Under the pieces are notes generated by a model. It searched no databases and was not told the DNA's origin. It saw only the letters and a program-made list of their open reading frames with translations. Position numbers and translations under genes: made by a program. A stretch of DNA of 57,357 bases from Chloroflexi bacterium TSY (GTDB taxonomy: Bacteria; Chloroflexota; Anaerolineae; Caldilineales; Caldilineaceae), in the NCBI GenBank assembly GCA_019217005.1, contig JAHBNG010000097.1, positions 1 to 57,357 of the forward strand, written 5' to 3'. Below, piece after piece: positions 10,830 to 55,325 of this stretch (the stretch's first letter is position 1; the number at the start of each line of letters is the position of its first letter).

Positions 10830-11036
10830 CCGAGGAGGAGGCGTTCTCTATTACACGCAGTAGACATAATCCTGCACTTCTCAGTCAAAACAGACTCGAG
10901 CGTGCCAAATGGTCCGAGATTCTCTACTGCGTCTTTTTTCGCCATTTGAACGCTCTACCTCTGAGAAATCCTACTGCGTGTAATCTCTAACGCCAGTTCC
11001 GCCCACGAGTCGCATTAGAGAATGCTCCCTCCTCGG
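10830..11036. mobile_element. miniature element I, copy 1, interrupted by element H
   Basis: Ends CCGAGGAGGAGGCGTTCTCTA and TAGAGAATGCTCCCTCCTCGG are inverted repeats. Uninterrupted relative at 44606-44697. Contains element H at 10851-10983. Confidence 0.75.
10851..10983. mobile_element. miniature element H, copy 1
   Basis: 133 bp with ends TTACACGCAGTA / TACTGCGTGTAA and a perfect 6-bp duplication TCTCTA (10845-10850, 10984-10989). Copy 2 (39226-39358) is nearly identical but in the opposite orientation. A short ORF inside both copies is just translation of the repeat. Confidence 0.9.
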
Positions 11037-11149: not shown

Positions 11150-12629
11150 TCTTTACTTTCTGGTAAAGGCTTGAGTGACAAAGGGCAAACCGAAAGGGGC
11201 GGAAAAAAGAATCCACCCTGAAAAAACGGGATAAAATGTAAAAATAGTGCTCGGCTAGTTTAAGCAGCGGCATTGAGGCGGCGATGAGCGAGAACGCCTT
11301 TAGGAAATGGTGTGAAACCGAGGCCTTTTCCGAAAGTCAGGGTCGAGTTGGTCAGGAGTTGGAAAAGAGCACTCGAGAGAACACGGCGCAGCCTGCTGGG
11401 AGTGGAGGCTCTCGATCCCAGTAGCCAGTCGGTATGGGAGGAAGAGAAGCGGCTAAATGGGAAAGAAGATTGCCAGCCAGCAGCCCCAGTTCAGGTAAGC
11501 GGAAACAAGCCTCATCGGCATGAACAAATTGACGATGTAAGCCAATCATCTGCTTGGAAGCCAAGGGGGGATGTTCAACAGGCCAGCGTTCCAGGTAGAC
11601 AAGATAAATGGTTTCAGGCTGCAAAGTCATAACGGTCGCCAAAACCAAAGGTGTGTTGTAGGCCGGATCCTGAATGACGTAAATCGAGTAGGTACGGTTG
11701 GCTGTATCCACCTTGGTTGTTCTGGGGACGAGATTGTGCCATGCTTGATAGCAAATCAGGCGACCACTATAGAGAAAGCGACCAGACGAGTCCGGAGTTG
11801 TAGCCTCGAGTCGCTTTCCCTTATAGCTGCGAGAGCGGACGCACAATATCACCATATTCAGGTGGTCTGCCTTTTCTTTGCGTTTGGGAACTCATTGCGG
11901 CGCACTGTGCAGTTAATGGCTTCCCGCAGGACAAATCGGTCTATGCCGCTTTCTAGCATTTCTCTGATTGTAAACCCGGCATCGACCACCGCCACTTCGT
12001 CTGACTCCAGTGATTTCTTCGTCTCTTCAGCAGCTTTTCCGAAACTCACTTTCCTTTGTTCCAACCGTGCATCTCATGATTGCCTTGAGCAGTGGCACTC
12101 GCTTCCCGCCTATCTCCCCGAGCTTATCATCACTCCAAAGATGAGCGCGGGCAATGCCGACGAGCCGTTGAGTTATAGAGTCGGTTCACTTTCCCTTGCA
12201 GCTTCGGTCGCCAGAACCCTGTGATATCTATGCTTTTCACTCGGTACCCTTCTAACTTTTTTGCCTCCCATTCCCCTTTCCACTTCTTCTTGCCACGACC
12301 CCAGCAGACTTGTGATATCCCATGATCCATATCGAGCTCCACCAGCTTCGCCGGGCTCCTCATCTTCAAACCCGCTTTCTTTCAATGCGCTATGGATTGC
12401 TCCTCGACTTTTCAGAAACGACCCATTCAGCATTGCCCACATCAGACGCATTACATTTACGTTTGTTCCCATCGGCGTTACTTGCAATACATTCATCAGT
12501 ACTGCTATAGTTATTTCTGGCGCGGTTAGCATTCCTTCCTCCTTTTTGGGTTCTCTACCTTTAGGATGAACTGCTAACCGCTTTTGTCACATTCTCACCT
12601 CATCTCTTTTCTTTTACCAGAAAGTAAAG
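11150..12629 (-). mobile_element. 1.48-kb IS (IS4-like DDE transposase), copy 1
   Basis: Bounded by inverted ends CTTTACTTTCTGGTAAA / TTTACCAGAAAGTAAAG. On the minus strand it encodes, in several frames, a transposase of about 410 residues: N-terminus MLTAPEITIAVLMNVLQ, DDE-type segment VAVVDAGFTIREMLESGIDRFVLREA, then [19 protein letters not shown] and a C-terminal HLPKGVLAHRR. No single ORF spans it; frames change at several small indels. It resembles IS4-superfamily transposases seen in Chloroflexota, exact family not assigned. Copies 2 and 3 at 15419-16783 and 53863-55325. Confidence 0.85.
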
Positions 12630-12689: not shown

Positions 12690-13577
<888 letters not shown>

Positions 13578-14352: not shown

Positions 14353-15342
14353 ATGCCAACCGCATTAATTACAGGGGTGACCGGTCAGGATGGTAGCTAT
14401 TTGGCCGACTTTTTGCTGGAGCAAGGCTACTACGTGATTGGAATGGTGCGACGAACCAGCACGATTAATTTTGATCGCATCAAACATATCCAAGATAGGA
14501 TTGAGATTGTTCAGGGAGATCTGTTGGATCAGATGAGCTTGATTGGTATCTTACAAGAGTATGAACCTGATGAAGTCTATAACTTGGCTGCCCAAAGCTT
14601 TGTTCCAACCAGTTTTACCCAACCGGTCCTGACGGGAGAATTCACTGCGTTGGGCGTTACGCGTATGTTAGATGCAATTCGCTTTGTCAACCCTGCCATC
14701 CGCTTTTATCAAGCCAGTAGCAGCGAGATGTTTGGGAAAGTACGTGAAGTCCCACAGCGAGAAAGTACACCTTTCTACCCGCGCAGTCCCTATGGTGTTG
14801 CCAAAGTTTATGGGCACTGGATCACAGTCAATTACCGTGAGAGCTATGATATGTTCGCTTGTTCGGGTATTCTTTTTAACCATGAGAGTCCACGTCGCGG
14901 TCTCGAATTCGTGACGCATAAGATTACCAATGCTGTGGCCAAGATCAAGCTTGGATTGGCGAATGAGTTGCGGCTGGGCAATCTAGAATCGCAACGTGAT
15001 TGGGGCTATGCCGCAGACTACGTGCGGGCGATGTGGCTGATGTTGCAGCACGATGCGCCTGATGATTATGTGATCGCCACCAGCGAAACCCACTCTGTAC
15101 GAGAGTTCTGCGAAGAGGCATTTGGCTATTTAGGGCTGGATTGGCAACAATATGTTGTGCAAGATGATCGTTTCTACCGTCCTGCAGAGGTTGATCTATT
15201 GGTGGGAGATGCAAGCAAAGCAGGTGAGATATTGGGGTGGGAACCATCTGTCGACTTTCCCGAACTCGTGCGCCTGATGGTCGACGCGGATCTGGAAGAT
15301 CTACAGAAGGCGGAATCTCAGCGACAGCGGGCAAGAGTATAA
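14353..15342 (+). CDS. gmd: GDP-mannose 4,6-dehydratase
   Basis: 329-residue short-chain dehydrogenase/reductase-fold enzyme converting GDP-D-mannose to GDP-4-keto-6-deoxy-D-mannose, precursor of GDP-rhamnose or GDP-fucose in surface glycans. Seen: Rossmann motif GVTGQDGSY at the N-terminus, RRTS of the NADP-binding family, YNLAAQSFV, active-site SSSEMFG and [12 protein letters not shown] (Tyr-xxx-Lys), HESPRRG, and [10 protein letters not shown]. Length is usual. A decayed rmd fragment lies upstream and IS copy 2 begins about 75 bp after the stop. The window contains no intact partner reductase, so the downstream step must be encoded elsewhere or is lost. Confidence 0.95.
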
Positions 15343-15418: not shown

Positions 15419-16783
15419 CTTTACTTTCTGGTAAAAGAAAAGAGATGAGGTGAGAAATGTGACAAAAAGCGGTTAGCAGTTCATCCTAAAGGTAGAGAAC
15501 CCAAAAAGGAGGAAGGAATGCTAACCGCGCCAGAAATAACTATAGCAGTACTGATGAATGTATTGCAAGTAACGCCGATGGGAACAAACGTAAATGTAAT
15601 GCGTCTGATGTGGGCAATGCTGAATGGGTCGTTTCTGAAAAGTCGAGGAGCAATCCATAGCGCATTGAAAGAAAGCGGGTTTGAAGATGAGGAGCTCCGG
15701 CGAAGCTGGTGGAGCTTTCGATATGGATCATGGGATATCACAAGTCTGCTGGGGTCGTGGCAAGAAGAAGTGGAAAGGGAATGGGAGGCAAAAAGTTAGA
15801 AGGGTACCGGTGAAAAGCATAGATATCACAGGGTTCGGCGACCGAAGCTGCAAAGTGAACCGACTCTATAACTCAACGGCTCGTCGGCATTGCCCGCGCT
15901 CATCTTTGGAGTGATGATAAGCTCGGGGAGATAGGCAGGAAGCGAGTGCCACTGCTCAAGGCAATCATGAGATGCACGGTTGGAACACAAGGAAAGTGAG
16001 TTTCGGAAAAAGCTGCTGACAGAGACGAAGAAATCACTGGAGTCAGACGAAGTGGCGGTGGTCGATGCCGGGTTTACAATCAGAGAAATGCTAGAAAGCG
16101 GCATAGACCGATTTGTCCTGCGGGAAGCGACTCGAGGCTACAACTCGGACTCGTCTGGTCGCTTTCTCTATAGTGGTCGCCTGATTTGCTATCAAGCATG
16201 GCACAATCTCGTCCCCAGAACAACCAAGGTGGATACTACCAACCGTACCTACTCGATTTACGTCATTCAGGATCCGGCCTCAACACCTTTGGTTTTGGCG
16301 ACCGTTATGACTTTGCAGCCTGAAACCATTTATCTTGTCTACCTGGAACGCTGGCCTGTTGAACCTCCTTGGCTTCCAAGCAGATGATTGGCTTACATCG
16401 TCAATTTGTTCATGCCGATGAGGCTTGTTTCCGCTTACCTGAACTGGGGCTGCTTGCTGGCAATCTTCTTTCCCATTTAGCCGCTTCTCTTCCTCCCATA
16501 CCGACTGGCTACTGGGATCGAGAGCCTCAATCCACTCCAGGCTGCGCCGTGTTCTCTCGAGTGCTCTTTTCCAACTCCTGACCAACTCGACCTGACTTTC
16601 GGAAAAAGGCCTCGGTTTCACACCATTTCCCTAAAGGCGTTCTCGCTCATCGCCGCCTCAATGCCGCTGCTTAAACTAGCCGAGCACTATTTTTACATTT
16701 TATCCCGTTTTTTCAGGGTGGATTCTTTTTTCCGCCCCTTTCGGTTTGCCCTTTGTCACTCAAGCCTTTACCAGAAAGTAAAG
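15419..16783 (+). mobile_element. 1.4-kb IS (IS4-like), copy 2, internally deleted
   Basis: Same inverted ends as copy 1 but opposite orientation; transposase would start at 15518. About 115 bp present in copies 1 and 3 are missing near 16130, with the short repeat GGGAA(A)GC at both deletion ends in the other copies, consistent with slippage or microhomology deletion. Further small indels break the frame. Confidence 0.85.
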
Positions 16784-20019: not shown

Positions 20020-23000
20020 TTATTGGTTCTCCAGGGCATCGATCGAATCGTTGATAATATCAGTACTTGTGTCGGGTGTTACGGCCTGAAGCAGTTCGAC
20101 TGACTCAAGATAATCATGGGCAATGGTCTCAAGAGACTCTTCGTCTCCACTATTCGCAATACCATCTGGGCCAACGTTGATCCGGGTCACCAAATCCATT
20201 ACTGTGCCTTCATTAAGCTGCTGGCTGAAGAGGGTTAATATATCTGCCAGGCGTGGATTGTGATCGAGTACCTCTTTGCGTACAACCGGTGCAGCGATGT
20301 CTAATTGGAGAAAGGAACGGGTATCTTCTAATACAGTAAGCTTCCATGCCTCAATAAGCCCATTCGTAATCATACCTGCTGCCACGTCACACTCCCCATC
20401 GTGTAAGCCAACAAACGTCTCATTGAGCGGCATGCTCAATATGTTCTCTTCCGTGAATGCAAAACCATATGCTTCCTGCAAATCGAGCAAGCCATCATGC
20501 TGCTTTTCATAGAAGATGTCGGCCACACATACGCGCAGTGGTGAGTCATTGGCATTCATAAAGTTTGCAAGTTCATCTATGGTACGGATGCCCCGATCGA
20601 TTAATTCTTGTTCTGCAATCAGGGCAAAGCGGTTCGTGTAATTGCTTTGATCCATCCAGATGATCCCTCTAAATTCATCCATCTTTTTGGCCAATTGGTA
20701 TATCCGGTGCGGCTCTCTGGGCAACGCTTCCACTGGCAGATCATGGTAATTAGATAAGACGAGACCCGAGGCTTCGACATAGACATCAATTTCACCACGC
20801 TCCATCGCGGGTCGTATTTCGCGTGCGCTGATACCAATTTTGTTCTCGGTAGCGAACCCCGCCTGCTGTAACAATTCCAGCAACATCTGACCCAACAGCC
20901 GTTGTTCTTCATCATCTTTGGATGCAACAACAATCGGCGGTGTGTCCAGAAAACCAGCGCTCCGGAGAAAGAGAGTAGCGATCGCATCGGCAGATTCTTC
21001 ATCCCCACTATTCGTGAGACCATCTGCCCCAACGCTGACCCGTGCATTCAGTTCGGTCATCACTTCGGGGGTAAGATACTGGCCGAAACTAGCCAGAACT
21101 TCGGCTATATTGGGATTATCATCAAGTGTTTCCTTCTTGATAATCGGTGCAGGCACGTAAGGGGGATAGAATCCACGCGTGTCTTCTAGAAGATAATCAT
21201 GGTCAATCAAAACATGGCCATCGACGTTCGTCCCCACTGCAACATCGCATTGCCCAGCATTTAACCCTTCGAGGGTTTCAGCCTGGGGCATGGTGACAAC
21301 ATTCTCTCTCTTAAAGCTGAACCCATACACTTGTTCGAGGGAGCTCAGACCAGTGTTTTCGTTGTCAGAGAGTGTGTCGATCATACACAGACGTAGCGGC
21401 GATTCATTCTCTCTCATGTACGCAGCCAGTTCATCAATCGTCTCTATCCCCTGATCCCATATCTCATCACGCACTACGAGGGTCTTACTCAAGACAAAAT
21501 CCGTTGGGTTAAGCCACAAGATGCCTTCTGCCTCATCCATGCGCTTGACCAGGGAGTAGGAACGCTCACTATCTACAGGCAATGAGCCTGTATCCAGGTC
21601 GTGATAGGCAGTTAATGCTGTCCCAGACAATTCCAGGTAGATGTCGATCTCGCCATTATGCAGAGCTTCCCGAATAGTTTCCGCAGGATAGTCTGTTTCC
21701 TCATTCACATTAAAGCCAGCTTCTTGCAATAACTGGACAATAATTTTGCCCAAGATCAAATTTTCGCTGCTGCTTGTAGATGCGACGGTAAGGGGAGGAG
21801 TTTCAAGCTCACCAATGCTGCGCAAGAATCTCCGCGCGACGGATTCAGCATCTTCCTCGTCCCCGCTGTTGACAATACCATCGGGTCCGATATCCACAAG
21901 AGCATTGAGTTCAGACATTTTGGCTTCGGTAAGACCGTCCACGAAGTGTGCCAATACCTCTTCAATATGGGGATTTTCGTCAAGTACAACCTGACGGATG
22001 ACGGGAGCTGGGACATAGTATGGATAGAAGGAGCGGTTGTCTTCTAGGGCGCGTTCATCGAACTGAGCGATATGACCATCGATATTTGTGCCGACAGCAA
22101 CATCACAATTCCCCACTCCTAAATTCTCCAAAGTTTCACCTTGAGGCATGGAGAGAACATTCTCGATCCTGAAACGGAAGCGATAGGTCTCTTCCAACGC
22201 AGCAAGACCGTCATGATCAGATTCCAAGAGCGTGTCGATGATACAAAGTCTGAACGGTGAATCATTCTCGTTCATGTAGGTAGCTAGATCATCAATGGTA
22301 TGGATCCCTTGGTCCCACAGATCGCGATTCACAACCAGCGTCTTATGAAGGGTATATGCTGTTGGGACCAGCCAGGCAATCCCTCTACGCTCATCCAACC
22401 TCTTGGCCAAAGCGTAGGATCGGTCGCGTTCTAGTGGAAGTGTTTCAACGGGTAGATTGTGATAGGAGGTCAGGGCCGAACCAGTTGTCTCCGGATAGAT
22501 ATCGATCTCACCGCTTTCCAATGCAGGACGCAGATTTGGAGTGGATGAATTTGTTTGATCATTCACATTGTAACCCGCATTCTGAAGAAGCAAGACGACC
22601 ATTTTACCAAGGAGCAGAGCCTCTGGGTTGTGTGTAGAGGCAACTGTAATAGGCGGTGTTTCAAGAAAACCAAGACGACGTAAAAAGCTGAGGGCTGTTA
22701 CTTCAACACTTTCTTCGTCCCCACTTCCTGCAATGCCATCGAACCCAGATTGCACAGCGGCTTTTAGTTCAAGCATCTCTTTTACGGTGAGTTCGTCAGT
22801 AAAACTAGCTAATGCGTCAGCAATTTCGGGATTCTCATCGAGTATTTCTTGACGAATGATGGGGGCTGGTACAAAGTCGGGAAAATAGTTACGTGTATCT
22901 TCCAACTCATGCTCTTCCCAAAATAAGATTTCGTTGGTCGTATTTGTTGCCCATGCCACATCACAGGCATCTTCCCCTAGGCTCACAACTGTATCATCTG

Positions 23001-23625
23001 GGCCCATTAACAAGATATTGTCTGAATCGAAGCTAAATTCATATACTTCTTCCAGAGCTCTCAGGCTAACGTTCCCACTGTCAATATATGATTCGGCCAT
23101 ACAGAGGCGGAGTGACGAATCATTCTCATTCATGTGAGTCGCCAAATCATCAATTGAATGGATCCCCTGATCCCATAGATTTGTGCGTACGATTAGGGCC
23201 TTGTGTACAGCGTACGCCATGGGTTTAAGCCAGATAATCCCCTCACGTTCATCTAATCGCTTGGCGAGTGCATAAGAACGCTCACGATCGTTCGGCAATG
23301 TGTCTGTGGGCAGATTGTGATAGGCGGAGAGAGCTGTTCCCGTCAACTCTGGATAGATGTCAATCTCGCCATCCTTTAAGGCCGCACGAGTGTCTGCGAA
23401 AGGAGACTCGGTTCTATCATCCACATCAAAGCCTGCATTCTGCAGCTGTAGGACAATGATTTTGCCGATGATCTGGTTTTCAATATCAGGTAATGATGCA
23501 ACGACTATCGGATTTGCATCTGTGTTGGAGTTGTCATCTGCCTGCGATTGGACTATACCAACCGAGACGATTTGTACTAAACCAACGATTGCAATGACGT
23601 TCAACACAATTCGGTATACGGCCAT
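20020..23625 (-). CDS. four tandem OpuAC-like osmoprotectant/glycine-betaine binding domains
   Basis: 1201 residues: an N-terminal signal or anchor helix (about 5-27), then four homologous modules with a period near 286 residues (about 39-325, 326-611, 612-897, 898-1185). Each module shows the OpuAC/QAT-type substrate-binding pattern: VVAS start, LLGKMVVLLLQNAGY, GEIDIYPE.TGTALTSYHNL, ERSYALAKRLDE, LWDQGI.TIDDLA and a C-terminal VPAPIIRQE.LDENP. Single-module relatives deliver glycine betaine, choline or carnitine to an ABC importer. Each module ends with an added GPDGIxNSGDEE segment before the last helix. Expected secreted or membrane-tethered. No permease or ATPase gene adjoins it. ATG follows AAGGAGC. 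Four fused modules is far outside the usual length (about 280-300). Confidence 0.9.
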   Translation of the reverse strand: MAVYRIVLNVIAIVGLVQIVSVGIVQSQADDNSNTDANPIVVASLPDIENQIIGKIIVLQLQNAGFDVDDRTESPFADTRAALKDGEIDIYPELTGTALSAYHNLPTDTLPNDRERSYALAKRLDEREGIIWLKPMAYAVHKALIVRTNLWDQGIHSIDDLATHMNENDSSLRLCMAESYIDSGNVSLRALEEVYEFSFDSDNILLMGPDDTVVSLGEDACDVAWATNTTNEILFWEEHELEDTRNYFPDFVPAPIIRQEILDENPEIADALASFTDELTVKEMLELKAAVQSGFDGIAGSGDEESVEVTALSFLRRLGFLETPPITVASTHNPEALLLGKMVVLLLQNAGYNVNDQTNSSTPNLRPALESGEIDIYPETTGSALTSYHNLPVETLPLERDRSYALAKRLDERRGIAWLVPTAYTLHKTLVVNRDLWDQGIHTIDDLATYMNENDSPFRLCIIDTLLESDHDGLAALEETYRFRFRIENVLSMPQGETLENLGVGNCDVAVGTNIDGHIAQFDERALEDNRSFYPYYVPAPVIRQVVLDENPHIEEVLAHFVDGLTEAKMSELNALVDIGPDGIVNSGDEEDAESVARRFLRSIGELETPPLTVASTSSSENLILGKIIVQLLQEAGFNVNEETDYPAETIREALHNGEIDIYLELSGTALTAYHDLDTGSLPVDSERSYSLVKRMDEAEGILWLNPTDFVLSKTLVVRDEIWDQGIETIDELAAYMRENESPLRLCMIDTLSDNENTGLSSLEQVYGFSFKRENVVTMPQAETLEGLNAGQCDVAVGTNVDGHVLIDHDYLLEDTRGFYPPYVPAPIIKKETLDDNPNIAEVLASFGQYLTPEVMTELNARVSVGADGLTNSGDEESADAIATLFLRSAGFLDTPPIVVASKDDEEQRLLGQMLLELLQQAGFATENKIGISAREIRPAMERGEIDVYVEASGLVLSNYHDLPVEALPREPHRIYQLAKKMDEFRGIIWMDQSNYTNRFALIAEQELIDRGIRTIDELANFMNANDSPLRVCVADIFYEKQHDGLLDLQEAYGFAFTEENILSMPLNETFVGLHDGECDVAAGMITNGLIEAWKLTVLEDTRSFLQLDIAAPVVRKEVLDHNPRLADILTLFSQQLNEGTVMDLVTRINVGPDGIANSGDEESLETIAHDYLESVELLQAVTPDTSTDIINDSIDALENQ

Positions 23626-26403: not shown

Positions 26404-27630
26404 CAATTAAGCGATAGGTTGGCGACGATGGGCTCGTTGCTGCAAATGGAAAGATTCATCATAAGGTTTCTTGTCTTGCCACAATTTCCAAATGATGCAA
26501 ATCCAGCGATTAGCGAGAGTGCGATCAGCATGACTCTTTTTTTGAGACCGCGTTGGCGAGCGGCGGTGTAAAAAGCAGCGGCCCAAGAAGACTCTTTGCG
26601 GGAGCAGCGAGCAAATTGCTGAGTAAAATAACGAAAGTCGTGATCGCAAGCTCTGCGGAAATGAACGGTTCTGACTTTGCCACTTTGTTTGGTGACAGGA
26701 CAGGTTCCCGCCAGAGACTGAAGGCTCATGGGAGAGGGAAAGCGTTTCCTGTCTTCGCCAAACTTGACCAGAAGACTGGGAGCTAAAAGCTGGCCAGCAC
26801 CAGGTAAAGAAGCAAAGATATGCTGATCCGGATGTTGCAGAAAAAAGTGACTGTAACTGGTCAAGGGTCTCTTGTTCATAGCGCAGTGCAAGCAAAAGAC
26901 ATTCAGCCAGCTGAAGAGCTTCTCGTTGATACGCTGGCACAAATGCAGGAGCTGATGTGGGATAAGTGGCGGTTAACTTATCATAACAAGTGACCCATTT
27001 ACGGGGTTGCGTATGTCGGTGCTGCTTGAGAAACTCTTGGAAGCCTTCATAGGTGGAGTTGCGCACATGCTCTGGCGTTGGATAGGTCAGAACCAGGTGG
27101 CAGGCAATCCGAGAAGGCCAGTTGCTGAAGACCTCAAGCAGCGCCGGATGGTAACGCAACAGGCAAGCGCGCAGACGGTTGGATAAGGCCACAGTCTCTT
27201 TGGTCCAGTATTGTGTGGCACTGCTGACCACTCGCATCTGCTGGAGTAATTCACTGCCAGGTGACCAAGGATAAAATCGATGGACATCGGTCCGCAACAA
27301 ATCTGCTATCACATAGGCATCACTCTTATCATTATGCGCACCACTTTGACTATAGCGCTCCCGACTCTTGTTCACCACATTCGGCGGCACCACATAGACA
27401 TTCTTGTACCCGCTCGACCAGAGATAATCAATCAGCAAATTATGCGCTGTTTCCAGTCCCACTGTCACTTCATCATGGCTCGCTCCTGTCTTCTTTCTCA
27501 TTTCTTCAATTTGGCGAAATCCCTTCTGGCTATGCTCTATCTGCGCATAGCCCAGCGCTCGTCCTGTCTCATCCAACATCATCACATCATGTTTCTTTTC
27601 ACTCCAGTCGATTCCCATTTTCACTTTCAT
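26404..27630 (-). mobile_element. IS110-family element, transposase frameshifted
   Basis: Encodes an IS110-type transposase of about 405 residues: RuvC-like DEDD domain with GIDWS, GLETAHNLLIDYL, and NDKSDAYVIADLLR, then a coiled middle and the C-terminal Transposase_20 region FASLPGAGQLLAPSLLVKFGE...LAGTCPVTKQSG. The frame breaks twice: at a run of six T near 26840 (five would restore frame) and at a run of seven A near 26545 (eight would restore frame). With those two corrections one ORF runs to the stop near 26408. Element ends were not resolved, as usual for IS110 which lacks clear inverted repeats. Confidence 0.88.
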
Positions 27631-39188: not shown

Positions 39189-39376
39189 TGGAGGAAGCTC
39201 TCTCTTGTGCGACCGGCACTAAAGATTACACGCAGTAGGATTTCTCAGAGGTAGAGCGTTCAAATGGCGAAAAAAGACGCAGTAGAGAATCTCGGACCAT
39301 TTGGCACGCTCGAGTCTGTTTTGACTGAGAAATGCAGGATTATGTCTACTGCGTGTAATAGAGAATGCCTCCTCCG
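39189..39376. mobile_element. element I, copy 2, interrupted by element H
   Basis: GGAGGAAGCTCTCTC...TAGAGAATGCCTCCTCC brackets element H (39226-39358) as at 10830-11036, but the I sequence is more divergent. Confidence 0.6.
39226..39358. mobile_element. miniature element H, copy 2
   Basis: 133 bp, near-identical to copy 1 in reverse orientation, ends TTACACGCAGTA / TACTGCGTGTAA. Flanking hexamers TAAAGA and TAGAGA (5 of 6) correspond to the same target site TCTCTA as copy 1 read on the other strand. Confidence 0.88.
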
Positions 39377-39438
39377 CTCATTCCTAACACTTTCTTGGCT
39401 TCACTTAATAAGACATTTTAGTTATATGAGCAACCTAT

Positions 39439-40509
39439 ATGAATACCAAAACAGTCCCGCTCACCTCCCTAGTTGCTTGCGCTGGTTGAGCGTCTAAGCT
39501 TCCGCCAGGAACGCTGTCGCAGGTCGTGCGACATGTAGCCGGGTTCTTTCCGGCAGATGAATATGAAAATGTACTGGTTGGTTTGAACGAGCCAGATGAT
39601 GCCGCTGTTTACCAACTTGATGACACGCGCGCACTCATCAAGACAACTGACTTCTTCACGCCAATCGTCGACGATCCCTGGACCTACGGTGCTATTGCTG
39701 CCGCCAACTCCATGAGTGACGTCTATGCAATGGGTGGTGAGGTAATCCTCTGTCTAAACATCGCCGGCTTTCCCGAAGATCTCTCACCAGACATTATTGG
39801 CCAAATTATCGCGGGCGGTGCCAACAAAGTCCAAGAGGCGGGCGGTGTCATTGCAGGTGGTCATACGGTGACCAATCCTGAACCGTTCTATGGACTCAGC
39901 GTCACGGGCATGGTTCATCCTGAGAACGTCATACGCAAAGGAGGGGCACGCCCTGGCGATCAACTTTATCTGACCAAACCGCTGGGAACCGGCATTGTGA
40001 CGACTGCTGCCAAGCTAACGGGCAAGCCTGATTTAGACCCTGCACATCTTGAGGCAGCCATCGGCTCAATGGCCCGTCTCAATAAGGCTGGCGCACAAGC
40101 TGCCCAAATGGCCAAGGTGCGTGGTGGATCAGATATTACAGGCTTTGGACTATTAGGACATGGGAGTGAGATAGCTGTCGCAAGCGGACAAAATGCCGGT
40201 GCTACTTTGCGTATCGCTGCAGAGAAGGTTCCTGCACTGCCTGGTGTCTGGGAGTATATCGACGCGGGGTATCTAACTCGTGGCAGTCAACGCAATCCAG
40301 AGCACTTTGGGCAGCATGTACAGATTGCGTCAAACGTTACATCGGCACAGAGGACGCTGCTCTGGGAGGCTGAAACAAGTGGCGGGTTGTTTCTATCCGT
40401 GCCAGCAGACGAAGCCCAAACATTCGAAGCTACCTGTGCAGAACGAGACCAAAACTACTGGCACATTGGAGATGTCATTTCTGGAGAGGGAATGGTTGAC
40501 GTTGTGTAG
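39439..40509 (+). CDS. selD: selenide, water dikinase with predicted selenocysteine at residue 17
   Basis: 356 residues from ATG 39439 when UGA at 39487-39489 is read as selenocysteine. The frame gives TSLVACAG-U-ASKLPPGTLS, then LNEPDDAAVYQLDD, KTTDFFTPIVDDPWTYG, NSMSDVYAMGG, GGHTV and GSDITGFGLLGHG: the SelD/AIR-synthase fold. SelD makes selenophosphate from selenide and ATP. U17 aligns with catalytic Cys17 and K20 with essential Lys20 of E. coli SelD (YSHGAGCGCK), a position known to be Sec in several bacteria. Starting at GTG 39526, as automatic calling would, removes the active site. A SECIS-like hairpin follows the UGA. No other sel genes lie nearby. Confidence 0.9.
39515..39533 (+). 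promoter_or_regulatory. bacterial SECIS hairpin for selD
   Basis: Perfect 7-bp stem TGTCGCA/TGCGACA with apical loop GGTCG; the loop begins 32 nt after the UGA, within the accepted 16-37 nt spacing, and its first two bases are G, as required for SelB binding. A smaller stem AGCGT/ACGCT (39489-39493, 39511-39515) can form between the UGA and this hairpin. Confidence 0.8.
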
Positions 40510-41463: not shown

Positions 41464-42760
41464 GGCCAATCCAAAAAATAAAATATACGCGAGAAGGTGT
41501 TAAACTAGCTCTCCAAAAGGAGCAAAAATGACAATCTCGCCAGAAATGGTTGAAGTCTTGAAAGAGACGAAGGCCATGTTAAGTGGATACGAAAGAAGGC
41601 ACTTCATGGCCCAAACGGTCAAAACGATATGCGAAGGGAGTCCGACGAAAGCAGAACGAGAGTTGGGCTGGAATCGGGCGACGATAGCCAAAGCCCTGGA
41701 AGAACTAGAAGGCGGCTTCTGTTATGTCGACCAAAGCCACCGACGTGGTCGCAAAAGCCGAAGACCATATCCCCACTTTACTGGCCGATATGGTTGAAAT
41801 CGCCGATCAATTCAGCCAGACCGATCCCACCTTTCGACCCCCCAATTGTACACTCGACTAACCGCCGCCGAAATGCGTACCCAGCTCATCGAGCAGAAAG
41901 GATACACAGATGAGGAATTGCCTGGCGAAGAGGCCATCCGCTTGAAGCTCAATGAGTTAGGCTATGGCTCAAACCGGGTCAAAAAAAGTCAACCAGTGAA
42001 AAAGATCCCAGAGACCGATGCGATCTTTGATAGAATTCATCAGATCAATCAAGAAGCGGATGCAGACGAGACGGTTCTGCGCCTCTCTTGGGATGCCAAA
42101 GCGACGATTTTACTTGACCGTTTCTCGAGAGAAGGGATAAGTCGAGTGGTTGTCAAAGCGCTCGATCATGACTTTCAAGATAAGAAGACCGAGAAAGTCA
42201 CTCCTTTTGGCATTTACCTCCCTTCAACCAAGGAACTCTTTCTTTACTTGACTCAGTCGAAAGTGACTAGTGACTGTATTGTCGACTGCCTGATTGATTT
42301 TTGGGAAAGCGTACGTGAACACTTTCCTCACGTCAAGACCCTCGTGATCAATCAGGACAATGGTCCCGAAAATCATACCCGTCGGACTCAGTTTATGTAT
42401 CGTCTCACTCAGTTTGTTGAGCACTATCGTCTCTCTATTCAGCTCGCCTGCTACCCTCCTTATCACAGTAAATACAACCCATCGAACGGGTTTGGGGCCA
42501 TCTTGAAAAACACTGGAACGGTTCTCTTCTCGATTCTCTTGAGACCGTTCTCAATTTTGCCCGTTCTTTTCGCTTTAACCAACTACAACCCTTCGTTCAC
42601 CTGAATTCCACTCTTTATGAGACCGGCGTCAAACTCACTCAGAAAGAGATGGACCGTTTGGAACAACGCTTCCAACGTTTACCTGGTTTAGAAAAATGGT
42701 TTGTCCTTATTCCCCCTCTCCATTCTCTCGTTCGCGTATAATTATTTTTTTGGTTTAGCC
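41464..42760 (+). mobile_element. ISAzo13-like element with frameshifted transposase
   Basis: Inverted ends GGCCAATCCAAAAAATAAAATATACGCGA (left) and the complement of TATACGCGAA...GGTTTAGCC (right), flanked by TAA. Transposase in pieces: 41528 MTISPEMVEVLKE...FMAQTVKTICEGSPTKAERELGWNR, 41846 LTAAEMRTQLIEQKGYTDEELP, VLRLSWDAKATI, VTPFGIYLP, LVINQDNGPENHTRRTQF and ACYPPYHSKYNP, then a last part in another frame to about 42741. The family assignment is from the QDNGPEN and PPYHSKYNPIE-type motifs. At least three frameshifts (about 41745, 41840, 42485). Confidence 0.85.
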
Positions 42761-44697: not shown

Positions 44698-44925
44698 CTG
44701 ACACGACATTATCACAATATGGGCGATAAGGCAGAGACAGTCAACTCGTAGGTCACACATCCCTGTGTGACAGGTGTCAAGACTCTCAGATCTTCACTTG
44801 GAAGAGGAGGGATCTTGATGCTTGTCCCGCCAGAGACGGGACCTACGAAACCCCGTCATCCTTTTGGTTCGTAGATCACACATCTCTACGATACGATTTT
44901 CTGTGTCCGCCTCGATTATGGCATA

Positions 44926-46789: not shown

Positions 46790-48409
46790 TTAAGAGCTGC
46801 AGGATAACATGGAGCATCCGGGGCGGTGTCGTGCCCAATCCGGTCGCTTGACTGCATACTTTTCCATCGAAGGTTGCTCATCGTAGGGGCGTCGTAGCAG
46901 TTCGAGCAATTCCCAAACGAGAGCATGATCGCCTTGGTCTGCCTGATCAATTGCCAACTGTGCCATGTAGTTACGCAATACATACTTGGGGTTGACGCTG
47001 TTCATCCGCTTGCGACGTTCAGAATCGGGCAACGTTTCCAGAGAGAGGCGTTCTTTGTATGCCCGGAGCCAGTTGCCTATTTGTTGCTTCACATCATCAG
47101 TTAATTGCTCCGGCACATAATATGCATCCAGTATTGGGGCCAGCAGCGCATCATTGGACAGATCGCTTGCAGGTGCCTCACTGACTGGCAAGTCAGCCAG
47201 ACGACGGAAAAAGATTGTCATATCTGTTTCCGCCAAGACCAAGGTCTTTTGCAGATCAGCGATGAGGGACTCGTCTGCTTCCTGCATTGTTGTTGTCAGA
47301 CCCAGTTTCTCTGCCATCATTGCTTGATAGCCTTGGGTGAACTGTTCGGCATATCGGTCGAGCGTTGCCTGGAGCGGTTCGACCTCATCCAGAAGCGGAA
47401 CCAACGCACTACCAAGCTGTGCTAAATTCCAATGCGCAATCTGGGGTTGATGACCAAAGCGATAGCGTCGATGCACAGAATCGGTTGTATTGGGGGTCCA
47501 CGTTGGATCATAATTCTCCAACCAGCCATAGGGACCGTAGTCGATGGTCAATCCCAAGATCGACATATTGTCTGTGTTCATCACCCCATGGACAAATCCA
47601 ACCCGCATCCAGTGGACAATCATGTCCGCCGTTCTTCGACAGATCTCGCTAAACCATTCCACATAGACTTCCTTTGATGGGTCACCCAAATGCGGAAAAT
47701 CGTTCTGGATGGTATAGTCGACCAGTTGCCGCAGCACGTTAAGTTCGTTACGGAAAGCAAAGATTTGGAAGTTGCCAAAGCGAATAAAAGAGCGGGCAAC
47801 GCGACAGACAATTGCGCCGGTCTCCAAAGCAGGGTGCCCATCGTAGAACATGTCGCGCAACACCTGTTCGCCAGTCGTCACAAGGCTGAGGGCACGAGTC
47901 GTTGGGACACCCAGATGGTGCATTGCTTCGCTGCACAAGAATTCGCGAATCGAGGAGCGCAGTACAGCCAATCCATCGGCGCTGCGTGAATAAGGCGTGA
48001 GTCCAGCACCTTTTAGCTGCAATGTCCAGTGCTCACCTGCATGATTGACGAGTTCACCTAGATTGATGGCGCGTCCATCTCCCAATTGTCCAGCCCAATT
48101 GCCAAACTGGTGACCGCCATAGCACATTGCATAGGGATCCATCCCATCTAACAATTGGTTGCCGGCAAACATCTGGGCAAATTCAGCCGAATTGACAAAG
48201 TCATCAGGCAGGTTCAGGATTTCTGCGACCTCGTGTGACCATGCAACAATTTCTGGATTGGCGACAGGGGTTGGTTTGACGCGTGAGTAACAAGCACCAA
48301 AAACCTGTCGTGGCTGCTTGGATTCATCTGGGTCTGCTGGCAATCTCTCGACAAATTGGTTATCAAAAACGAGTTGTTTGTCTTGTGTTAAAGTTGTTGA
48401 AATATTCAT
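46790..48409 (-). CDS. selO: protein adenylyltransferase SelO (YdiU family)
   Basis: 539 residues. Pseudokinase-fold AMP-transferase linked to redox homeostasis. Seen: FGACYSRVKPTPV, CYGGHQFGNWAGQLGDGRAI, LKGAGLTPYSR.ADG, REFLCSEAMHHLGVPTTRALSLVTTG, VHGVMNTDNMSILGLTIDYGPYGWLENY, and a C-terminal PDWARHRPGCSMLSCSS. The final CSS carries Cys where animal SelO has selenocysteine. Starts 3 bp after the preceding gene stop; middle of the five-gene operon. Despite the selenoprotein SelD upstream, this gene itself uses no UGA. Confidence 0.95.
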   Translation of the reverse strand: MNISTTLTQDKQLVFDNQFVERLPADPDESKQPRQVFGACYSRVKPTPVANPEIVAWSHEVAEILNLPDDFVNSAEFAQMFAGNQLLDGMDPYAMCYGGHQFGNWAGQLGDGRAINLGELVNHAGEHWTLQLKGAGLTPYSRSADGLAVLRSSIREFLCSEAMHHLGVPTTRALSLVTTGEQVLRDMFYDGHPALETGAIVCRVARSFIRFGNFQIFAFRNELNVLRQLVDYTIQNDFPHLGDPSKEVYVEWFSEICRRTADMIVHWMRVGFVHGVMNTDNMSILGLTIDYGPYGWLENYDPTWTPNTTDSVHRRYRFGHQPQIAHWNLAQLGSALVPLLDEVEPLQATLDRYAEQFTQGYQAMMAEKLGLTTTMQEADESLIADLQKTLVLAETDMTIFFRRLADLPVSEAPASDLSNDALLAPILDAYYVPEQLTDDVKQQIGNWLRAYKERLSLETLPDSERRKRMNSVNPKYVLRNYMAQLAIDQADQGDHALVWELLELLRRPYDEQPSMEKYAVKRPDWARHRPGCSMLSCSS

Positions 48410-53862: not shown

Positions 53863-55325
53863 CTTTACTTTCTGGTAAAGGCTTGAGTGACAAAGGGCAA
53901 ACCGAAAGGGGCGGAAAAAAGAATCCACCCTGAAAAAACGGGATAAAATGTAAAAATAGTGCTCGGCTAGTTTAAGCAGCGGCATTGAGGCGGCGATGAG
54001 CGAGAACGCCTTTAGGTAAATGGTGTGAAACCGAGGCCTTTTTCCGAAAGTCAGGGTCGAGTTGGTCAGGAGTTGGAAAAAGAGCACTCGAGAGAACACG
54101 GCGCAGCCTGCCGGGAGTGGATTGAGGCTCTCGATCCCAGTAGCCAGTCGGTATGGGAGGAAGAGAAGCGGCTAAATGGGAAAGAAGATTGCCAGCAAGC
54201 AGCCCCAGTTCAGGTAAGCGGAAACAAGCCTCATCGGCATGAACAAATTGACGATGTAAGCCAATCATCTGCTTGGAAGCCAAGGGGGGATGTTCAACAG
54301 GCCAGCGTTCCAGGTAGACAAGATAAATGGTTTCAGGCTGCAAAGTCATAACGGTCGCCAAAACCAAAGGTGTGTTGTAGGCCGGATCCTGAATGACGTA
54401 AATCGAGTAGGTACGGTTGGCTGTATCCACCTTGGTTGTTCTGGGGACGAGATTGTGCCATGCTTGATAGCAAATCAGGCGACCACTATAGAAAGCGACC
54501 AGACGAGTCCGGAGTTGTAGCCTCGAGTCGCTTTCCCTTATAGCTGCGAGAGCGGTCGCACAATATCACCATATTCAGGTGGTCTGCCTTTTCTTTGCGT
54601 TTGGGAACTCATTGCGGCGCTGTGCAGTTAATCGCTTCCCGCAGGACAAATCGGTCTATGCCGCTTTCTAGCATTTCTCTGATTGTAAACCCGGCATCGA
54701 CCACCGCCACTTCGTCTGACTCCAGTGATTTCTTCGTCTCTTTCAGCAGCTTTTTCCGAAACTCACTTTCCTTTGTTCCAACCGTGCATCTCATGATTGC
54801 CTTGAGCAGTGGCACTCGCTTCCCGCCTATCTCCCCCGAGCTTATCATCACTCAAAGATGAGCGCGGGCAATGCCCGACGAGCCGTTGAGTTATAGAGTC
54901 GGTTCACTTTCCCTTGCAGCTTCGGTCGCCAGAACCCTGTGATATCTATGCTTTTCACTCGGTACCCTTCTAACTTTTGCCTCCCATTCCCCTTTTGCCA
55001 CGACCCCAGCAGACTTGTGATATCCCATGATCCATATCGAAAGCTCCACCAGCTTCGCCGGATCTTCAAACCCGCTTTCTTTCAATGCGCTATGGATTGC
55101 TCCTCGACTTTTCAGAAACGACCCATTCAGCATTGCCCACATCAGACGCATTACATTTACGTTTGTTCCATCGGCGTTACTTGCAATACATTCATCAGTA
55201 CTGCTATAGTTATTTCTGGCGCGGTTAGCATTCCTTCCTCCTTTTGGGTTCTCTACCTTTAGGATGAACTGCTAACCGCTTTTCACATTTCTCACCTCAT
55301 CTCTTTCTTTTACCAGAAAGTAAAG
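53863..55325 (-). mobile_element. 1.46-kb IS (IS4-like), copy 3
   Basis: Same ends as copies 1 and 2 (CTTTACTTTCTGGTAAA / TTTACCAGAAAGTAAAG); a TAC duplication is compatible with ends ACTTTAC. Transposase on the minus strand starts near 55240 and is read in several frames to about 53980, including the C-terminal [33 protein letters not shown] in frame. Differs from copy 1 by small deletions (for example 9 bp near 54995 and 7 bp near 55062). Confidence 0.88.

Follow-up and report, generated by a model that had tools for sequence, protein, structure and literature searches.

The selD gene, encoding a selenophosphate synthetase (selenide, water dikinase), is located on the forward strand at 39439..40509 of the window, i.e. 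of the whole stretch of 57,357 nucleotides that was analysed. When UGA is read as selenocysteine (Sec), the gene comprises 356 codons and its translation of 356 residues, MNTKTVPLTSLVACAG-U-ASKLPPGTL..., includes a single internal TGA at 39487-39489, the proposed Sec17. The codon for Lys20 follows at 39496-39498, the stop codon is TAG (40507-40509), and the frame is limited upstream by an in-frame TGA at 39427-39429. Standard gene calling (table 11) yields a truncated ORF of 327 amino acids (39526..40509, forward strand), which begins at GTG 39526 and is devoid of residues 17 and 20; ATG 39439 lies 87 nt (29 codons) further upstream. The first-pass annotation had extended the frame by these 29 codons through one TGA to ATG 39439, and direct reading and translation confirmed this extension.

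A profile search against TIGR00476 resulted in a score of 349.4 bits, which is far above the curated cut-off of 125 and places the protein in this family. Domain search identified the AIRS and AIRS_C domains, and the best solved relative was found to be 3u0o (E 2.7e-71). In the alignment with 3u0o the TGA stands opposite Cys17 with no preceding gap and Lys20 is retained, so that the catalytic positions are occupied as in SelD. The earlier reading of the N-terminus as ACAG-U-ASKLPPGTL, with the TGA at the catalytic Cys17 and Lys20 kept, is therefore correct. Compared to the Cys-type enzyme 3u0o, the window protein belongs to the same family, shares the fold region and Lys20 and aligns without gaps around residue 17, whereas 3u0o has Cys17 and needs no SECIS and the window protein would carry Sec. 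Sec17 beside Lys20 has a catalytic role in SelD, and the residue encoded here would be expected to act likewise.

Gene calling truncates SelD before the catalytic residue, which is a point to consider during annotation. Of 120 protein homologues listed, 119 (the window's own P0002 included) likewise begin past the UGA/Cys site, although such a start is no proof of a UGA in each of them. These gene models would fit a functional product that is the 327-aa protein starting at GTG 39526, with the upstream part left untranslated. Such a protein would have neither Sec/Cys17 nor Lys20, the residues upstream of the GTG are conserved as protein in relatives (LT..VACAGUASKLPP), and the GTG start sits within the loop of the hairpin described below. 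We consider the probability of this short product to be close to negligible.

A bacterial SECIS-like hairpin was read directly downstream of the UGA at 39515..39533 (forward strand), and is also paired in relatives. It consists of the 5' arm UGUCGCA (39515-39521), the loop GGUCG (39522-39526) and the 3' arm UGCGACA (39527-39533). The stem starts at the 26th nucleotide past the UGA and the gap between UGA and loop amounts to 32 nt, in agreement with the perfect 7-bp hairpin with GGUCG loop noted previously. A stem-loop just 3' of the UGA whose first loop bases include G, as is typical of a bacterial SECIS, is thus present. Folding of the 59 nt starting from the UGA was no better than that of shuffled sequences (z -0.88; 33 of 200 equally good). 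Since the fold energy of the single sequence is not significant, it is not sufficient for the case and was replaced by comparative tests.

The chance occurrence of such hairpins was estimated with a criterion requiring a Watson-Crick stem of 7 bp or more without mismatch, a loop of 3-8 nt, G in the first two loop bases and a position 16-37 nt past the codon. Of the 2225 TGA triplets on both strands of the window, 5 precede a qualifying hairpin, the UGA of selD included. Among 20000 mononucleotide shuffles of the 70-nt local sequence, 0.6% satisfied the same criterion. When a 6-bp stem was allowed and an open frame was required (from a start, 10 or more open codons ahead of the TGA, and 30 or more after it), three TGAs in the window passed; 339 codons are open downstream of the selD UGA, compared to 32 and 119 for the others. 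The latter two, which emerged as loose candidates for a second selenoprotein in the window, are those at 44796 and 19982 (minus strand).

Comparison with relatives carries the main weight of the evidence for a Sec-containing SelD, and this evidence is strong. The hairpin comparison included 90 UGA genes and 18 Cys-type genes after L029, L054 and L080 had been excluded by a stricter motif. The family set of 31 sequences was composed of the window and 30 of the 42 family loci with UGA-SelD, namely those given locus ids. The seven stem pairs were paired in 215 of 217 cells in the 31 family sequences, compared to 67 of 126 cells at the equivalent positions in the 18 Cys-type genes, which mostly come from other phyla. 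Perfect stems of 7 bp or longer at an allowed spacing were found in 23/31 family sequences, 28/59 other UGA genes and 0/18 Cys-type genes; for stems of at least 4 bp these numbers were 31/31, 57/59 and 4/18, respectively. After merging of identical rows (28 distinct), 99.0% of 196 cells pair, while slid partners yield 13.3 to 56.1%.

Five of the seven pairs are invariant. Three sequences have G-C in place of U-A at the third pair, while the second pair is mismatched in two, those of the family genomes G033 (L088) and G034 (L106). The numbers of paired cells and of cells with two-sided change as well as the covariation score were all above 500/500 shuffles, whereas the number of stem pairs with two-sided change (1/7) was not (152/500). 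Silent sites provide a better test of the hairpin, because the amino acids are also conserved. Counting Sec as 1, the third-position entropy in the hairpin is 0 bits at Ser11, 0.21 bits at Val13 and 0 bits at Val14. Of these, only Val13 qualified as a conserved 4-fold column; the values for Ser11 (28/31) and Val14 (27/31) were taken from the alignment rows. In comparison, the 79 other conserved 4-fold columns have a mean of 1.44 bits and none is at or below 0.25 bits. The wobble base of Arg15 in the 3' arm varies (1.14 bits), with U-A, U-G and G-C alternating there. The hairpin is thus constrained at the nucleotide level and its silent sites are nearly frozen, which makes this family a clear case of a Sec-insertion mRNA hairpin showing as frozen silent sites.

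The UGA itself is also conserved. In the best 80 of at least 583 matched stretches of genome contigs, the codon at the site is TGA in 60 cases and Cys in 19, with one lost to a contig edge. The nearest named genome is a Chloroflexi MAG (L001, G001; L084 and L001 are one and the same gene). In its family, as delimited by the search tool, 46 genomes were examined, and the SelD match contains a single TGA in 42 of them. As for the remaining four, SelD is stop-free in G046 and matched no more than weakly in G044 (E 9.1e-6), and no SelD match was obtained in G038 and G050. SelD is thus nearly always of the Sec type in this family and, apart from one exception seen (G049), no other strong SelD match accompanies it. 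An in-frame UGA that aligns with Cys of homologues and is kept as UGA in relatives, as expected of a selenoprotein gene, is therefore found here. In a SelD tree built by a quick method, both the window sequence and P0003, a metagenomic protein, fall inside the clade of this family, with an SH-aLRT support of 99 for 42 rows. Two homologues with Caldilineaceae source names, P0035 and P0042, share 70% identity with the window SelD, and the host may tentatively be regarded as a Caldilineaceae-like Chloroflexota bacterium.

A sequencing or assembly error, with TGC or TGT as the true codon of an ordinary Cys-type SelD, has to be weighed against these observations. Cys-type SelD does occur within the clade of the window (P0098, the only one of the 120 homologues listed with Cys at the site) and at 19 of the 80 loci mentioned above. 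However, the same TGA recurs in the 42 related genomes and the SECIS-like hairpin has been kept; none of the 18 Cys-type genes examined has such a perfect stem of 7 bp or more. Such an error is thus very improbable. G046, in which the stop-free SelD occurs with SelA and SelB, a tRNA-Sec of marginal score and a SelW-like gene with TGA, and P0098 possibly represent changes from Sec to Cys.

Within the window, neither a tRNA (ARAGORN) nor an Rfam match at gathering score was detected. The genes selA, selB and selC were searched for in the genomes of relatives rather than in that of the window organism. Among the 46 family genomes, SelA, SelB and tRNA-Sec exceeded the cut-off in 42 genomes each. 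All three were above cut-off in 38 of the 42 genomes with UGA-SelD, and the totals of this joint table agree with the separate tallies for SelD, tRNA-Sec, SelA and SelB. For tRNA-Sec, 72 candidates per genome were scored against a gathering score of 47; the tRNA-Sec of G046 is marginal (49.5 bits) and that of G050 lies narrowly below (46.5 bits). Signals of SelB and tRNA-Sec below the cut-off were also obtained in 14/14 control genomes. In a search of ten genomes, SelB was above cut-off in 7, the misses being G005 and G006, both with UGA-SelD, and G008, whose SelD (L019) is of the Cys type.

The completeness of the related genomes is not given, and absences may therefore be assembly gaps. In G001, SelA is represented solely by a piece at the edge of a contig, while G051 and G054 have SelA with neither SelB nor tRNA-Sec over cut-off; a SelB-like piece of 160 bits in G054 reaches position 580 of 581. 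None of the three parts is over cut-off in G050, which has a stop-free SelW-like gene. G038 and G044 lack a good SelD match but carry a TGA in SelW, together with some or all of the machinery. G033 has a UGA-SelD, yet none of SelA, SelB and tRNA-Sec over cut-off, and features stop-free formate dehydrogenases and a SelW-like gene with TGA. Either an assembly gap or a recent loss of the Sec trait would account for this genome, and the TGA in the SelW-like gene makes an assembly gap equally likely. G034, in which the hairpin has the same mismatch as in G033, has the machinery.

These findings also bear on the question of whether selD of the window is a relic, dead or truncated after the loss of Sec decoding. 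The window contains no visible machinery, G033 would be a precedent, and a mobile-element-like repeat ends 63 bp upstream of the start codon. On the other hand, the frame is open for 339 codons past the UGA, the 7-bp stem is intact, the protein is 92% identical to P0003 over 326 columns, and even G033 retains the TGA in its SelW-like gene. We therefore regard a relic as highly unlikely. The first-pass annotation proposed that this organism decodes UGA as Sec, and the relatives support this proposal through the conserved UGA (42/46), the constraint on the hairpin and the machinery (38/42), so that Sec decoding can be expected in the window organism itself.

Other genes of the relatives point to users of selenophosphate. 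TGA-containing SelW-like genes were found in 12/12 chosen relatives and in 5/8 further ones; in the remaining three, the SelW-like gene is stop-free (G050) or was not found (G051 and G054). A TGA-containing formate dehydrogenase alpha subunit (FdhA) was present in 9/16 relatives. In G028, which consists of one contig, a TGA is found in SelD and in the SelW-like gene, with no TGA-containing FdhA among the matches listed. This genome also has a weak match near 3575998 of contig 1, inside an exceptionally long open frame of 24111 aa. Selenouridine synthase was not above cut-off in any of the 46 family genomes, from which selenophosphate there seems to serve Sec only. A role of the Sec system in selenouridine formation was suggested for genomes without FdhA in the accessible part of PMC1794560. 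For the family studied here, it is conceivable but somewhat doubtful that the Sec system feeds itself in a closed loop maintained for a few selenoproteins, e.g. the SelW-like protein, with Sec as the sole outlet of selenophosphate and no use for selenouridine. The gene content of G028 would be in line with such a loop.

Taking all results into account, a selenophosphate synthetase with a UGA-encoded Sec in the active site is very probably the product of this gene. The best overall explanation, to which we assign a probability of about 95%, is a genuine selD in which UGA 39487 is read as Sec via a SelB-bound hairpin, Sec17 is catalytic and the product feeds its own synthesis. According to this model, SelB carrying Sec-tRNA(Sec) would bind the hairpin downstream of the UGA and the ribosome would insert Sec. 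Sec17 next to Lys20 would then serve catalysis, in which selenide and ATP give selenophosphate. SelA would use selenophosphate to form Sec-tRNA(Sec) for SelD itself and presumably also for other selenoproteins, such as the SelW-like protein and, in some relatives, formate dehydrogenase. The dependence of SelD on its own product, pointed out earlier for this gene, would be common to every Sec-type SelD.

The Sec-containing SelD of the window is an expected selenoprotein of a well-known kind, ordinary for its lineage and common in relatives. As far as the available portions of the sources go, Sec-containing SelD has long been known (PMC1794560, PMC13188914), SelD is among the five most widespread (PMC9312934) and it is a selenoprotein in many organisms (PMC12013277). 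For single-cell genomes of Anaerolineales, the part of PMC4959059 at hand reports Sec translation factors as well as Sec-containing formate dehydrogenases, and it does not mention SelD. Compared to the Sec-containing bacterial SelD in the accessible text of PMC1794560, the window gene is alike in the UGA at the catalytic position, the SECIS hairpin immediately 3' inside the coding sequence and the Sec machinery (here in relatives). No fundamental difference is apparent at that level, the GGUCG loop and the UGUCGCA/UGCGACA stem being the form of the Chloroflexota family of the window. Eukaryotic SPS2/SEPHS2, as described in the available part of PMC4561486, is likewise a selenophosphate synthetase that is a selenoprotein, but its SECIS is located in the 3' UTR, whereas that of the window lies inside the coding sequence past the UGA.

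The window is rich in repeats. Two inverted copies of a 164-nt element (39212-39375 and 10834-10997) are 96% identical over 164 nt, have perfect 14-nt terminal inverted repeats (ATTACACGCAGTAG) and fold far better than shuffled sequences (z -3.29), which is MITE-like. The copy at 39212-39375 may carry or displace the selD promoter. SelO (protein adenylyltransferase, PF02696) is encoded on the reverse strand at 46790-48409, about 6 kb from selD. It was considered as a second selenoprotein with C-terminal Sec and rejected, as it ends with CSMLSCSS followed by TAA and is hence of the Cys type. In a tblastn comparison of 16 window proteins with the loci, L031 was found to have relatives of two permeases and an ATPase, and for this ATPase relatives were present at 17 loci. 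The flanks available for the family loci L081-L110 measure only about 1.5 kb, and these loci are hardly informative on synteny. An ISAzo13-type transposase piece of 252 aa, below the NCBIfam cut-off, is present at 41846-42604 (forward strand), and a protein with a transposase match of the IS110 type at 26407-27630 (reverse strand). A region of about 1.4 kb occurs three times (11151-12585, 15465-16783 and 53863-55283), with two direct copies and one inverted copy that are 94-100% identical in pieces, and a perfect inverted repeat of 578 nt is formed by 12799-13376 and 14659-15236. The reverse strand also encodes a protein of 1201 aa (20020-23625), a single chain that matches the OpuAC substrate-binding domain in four stretches.
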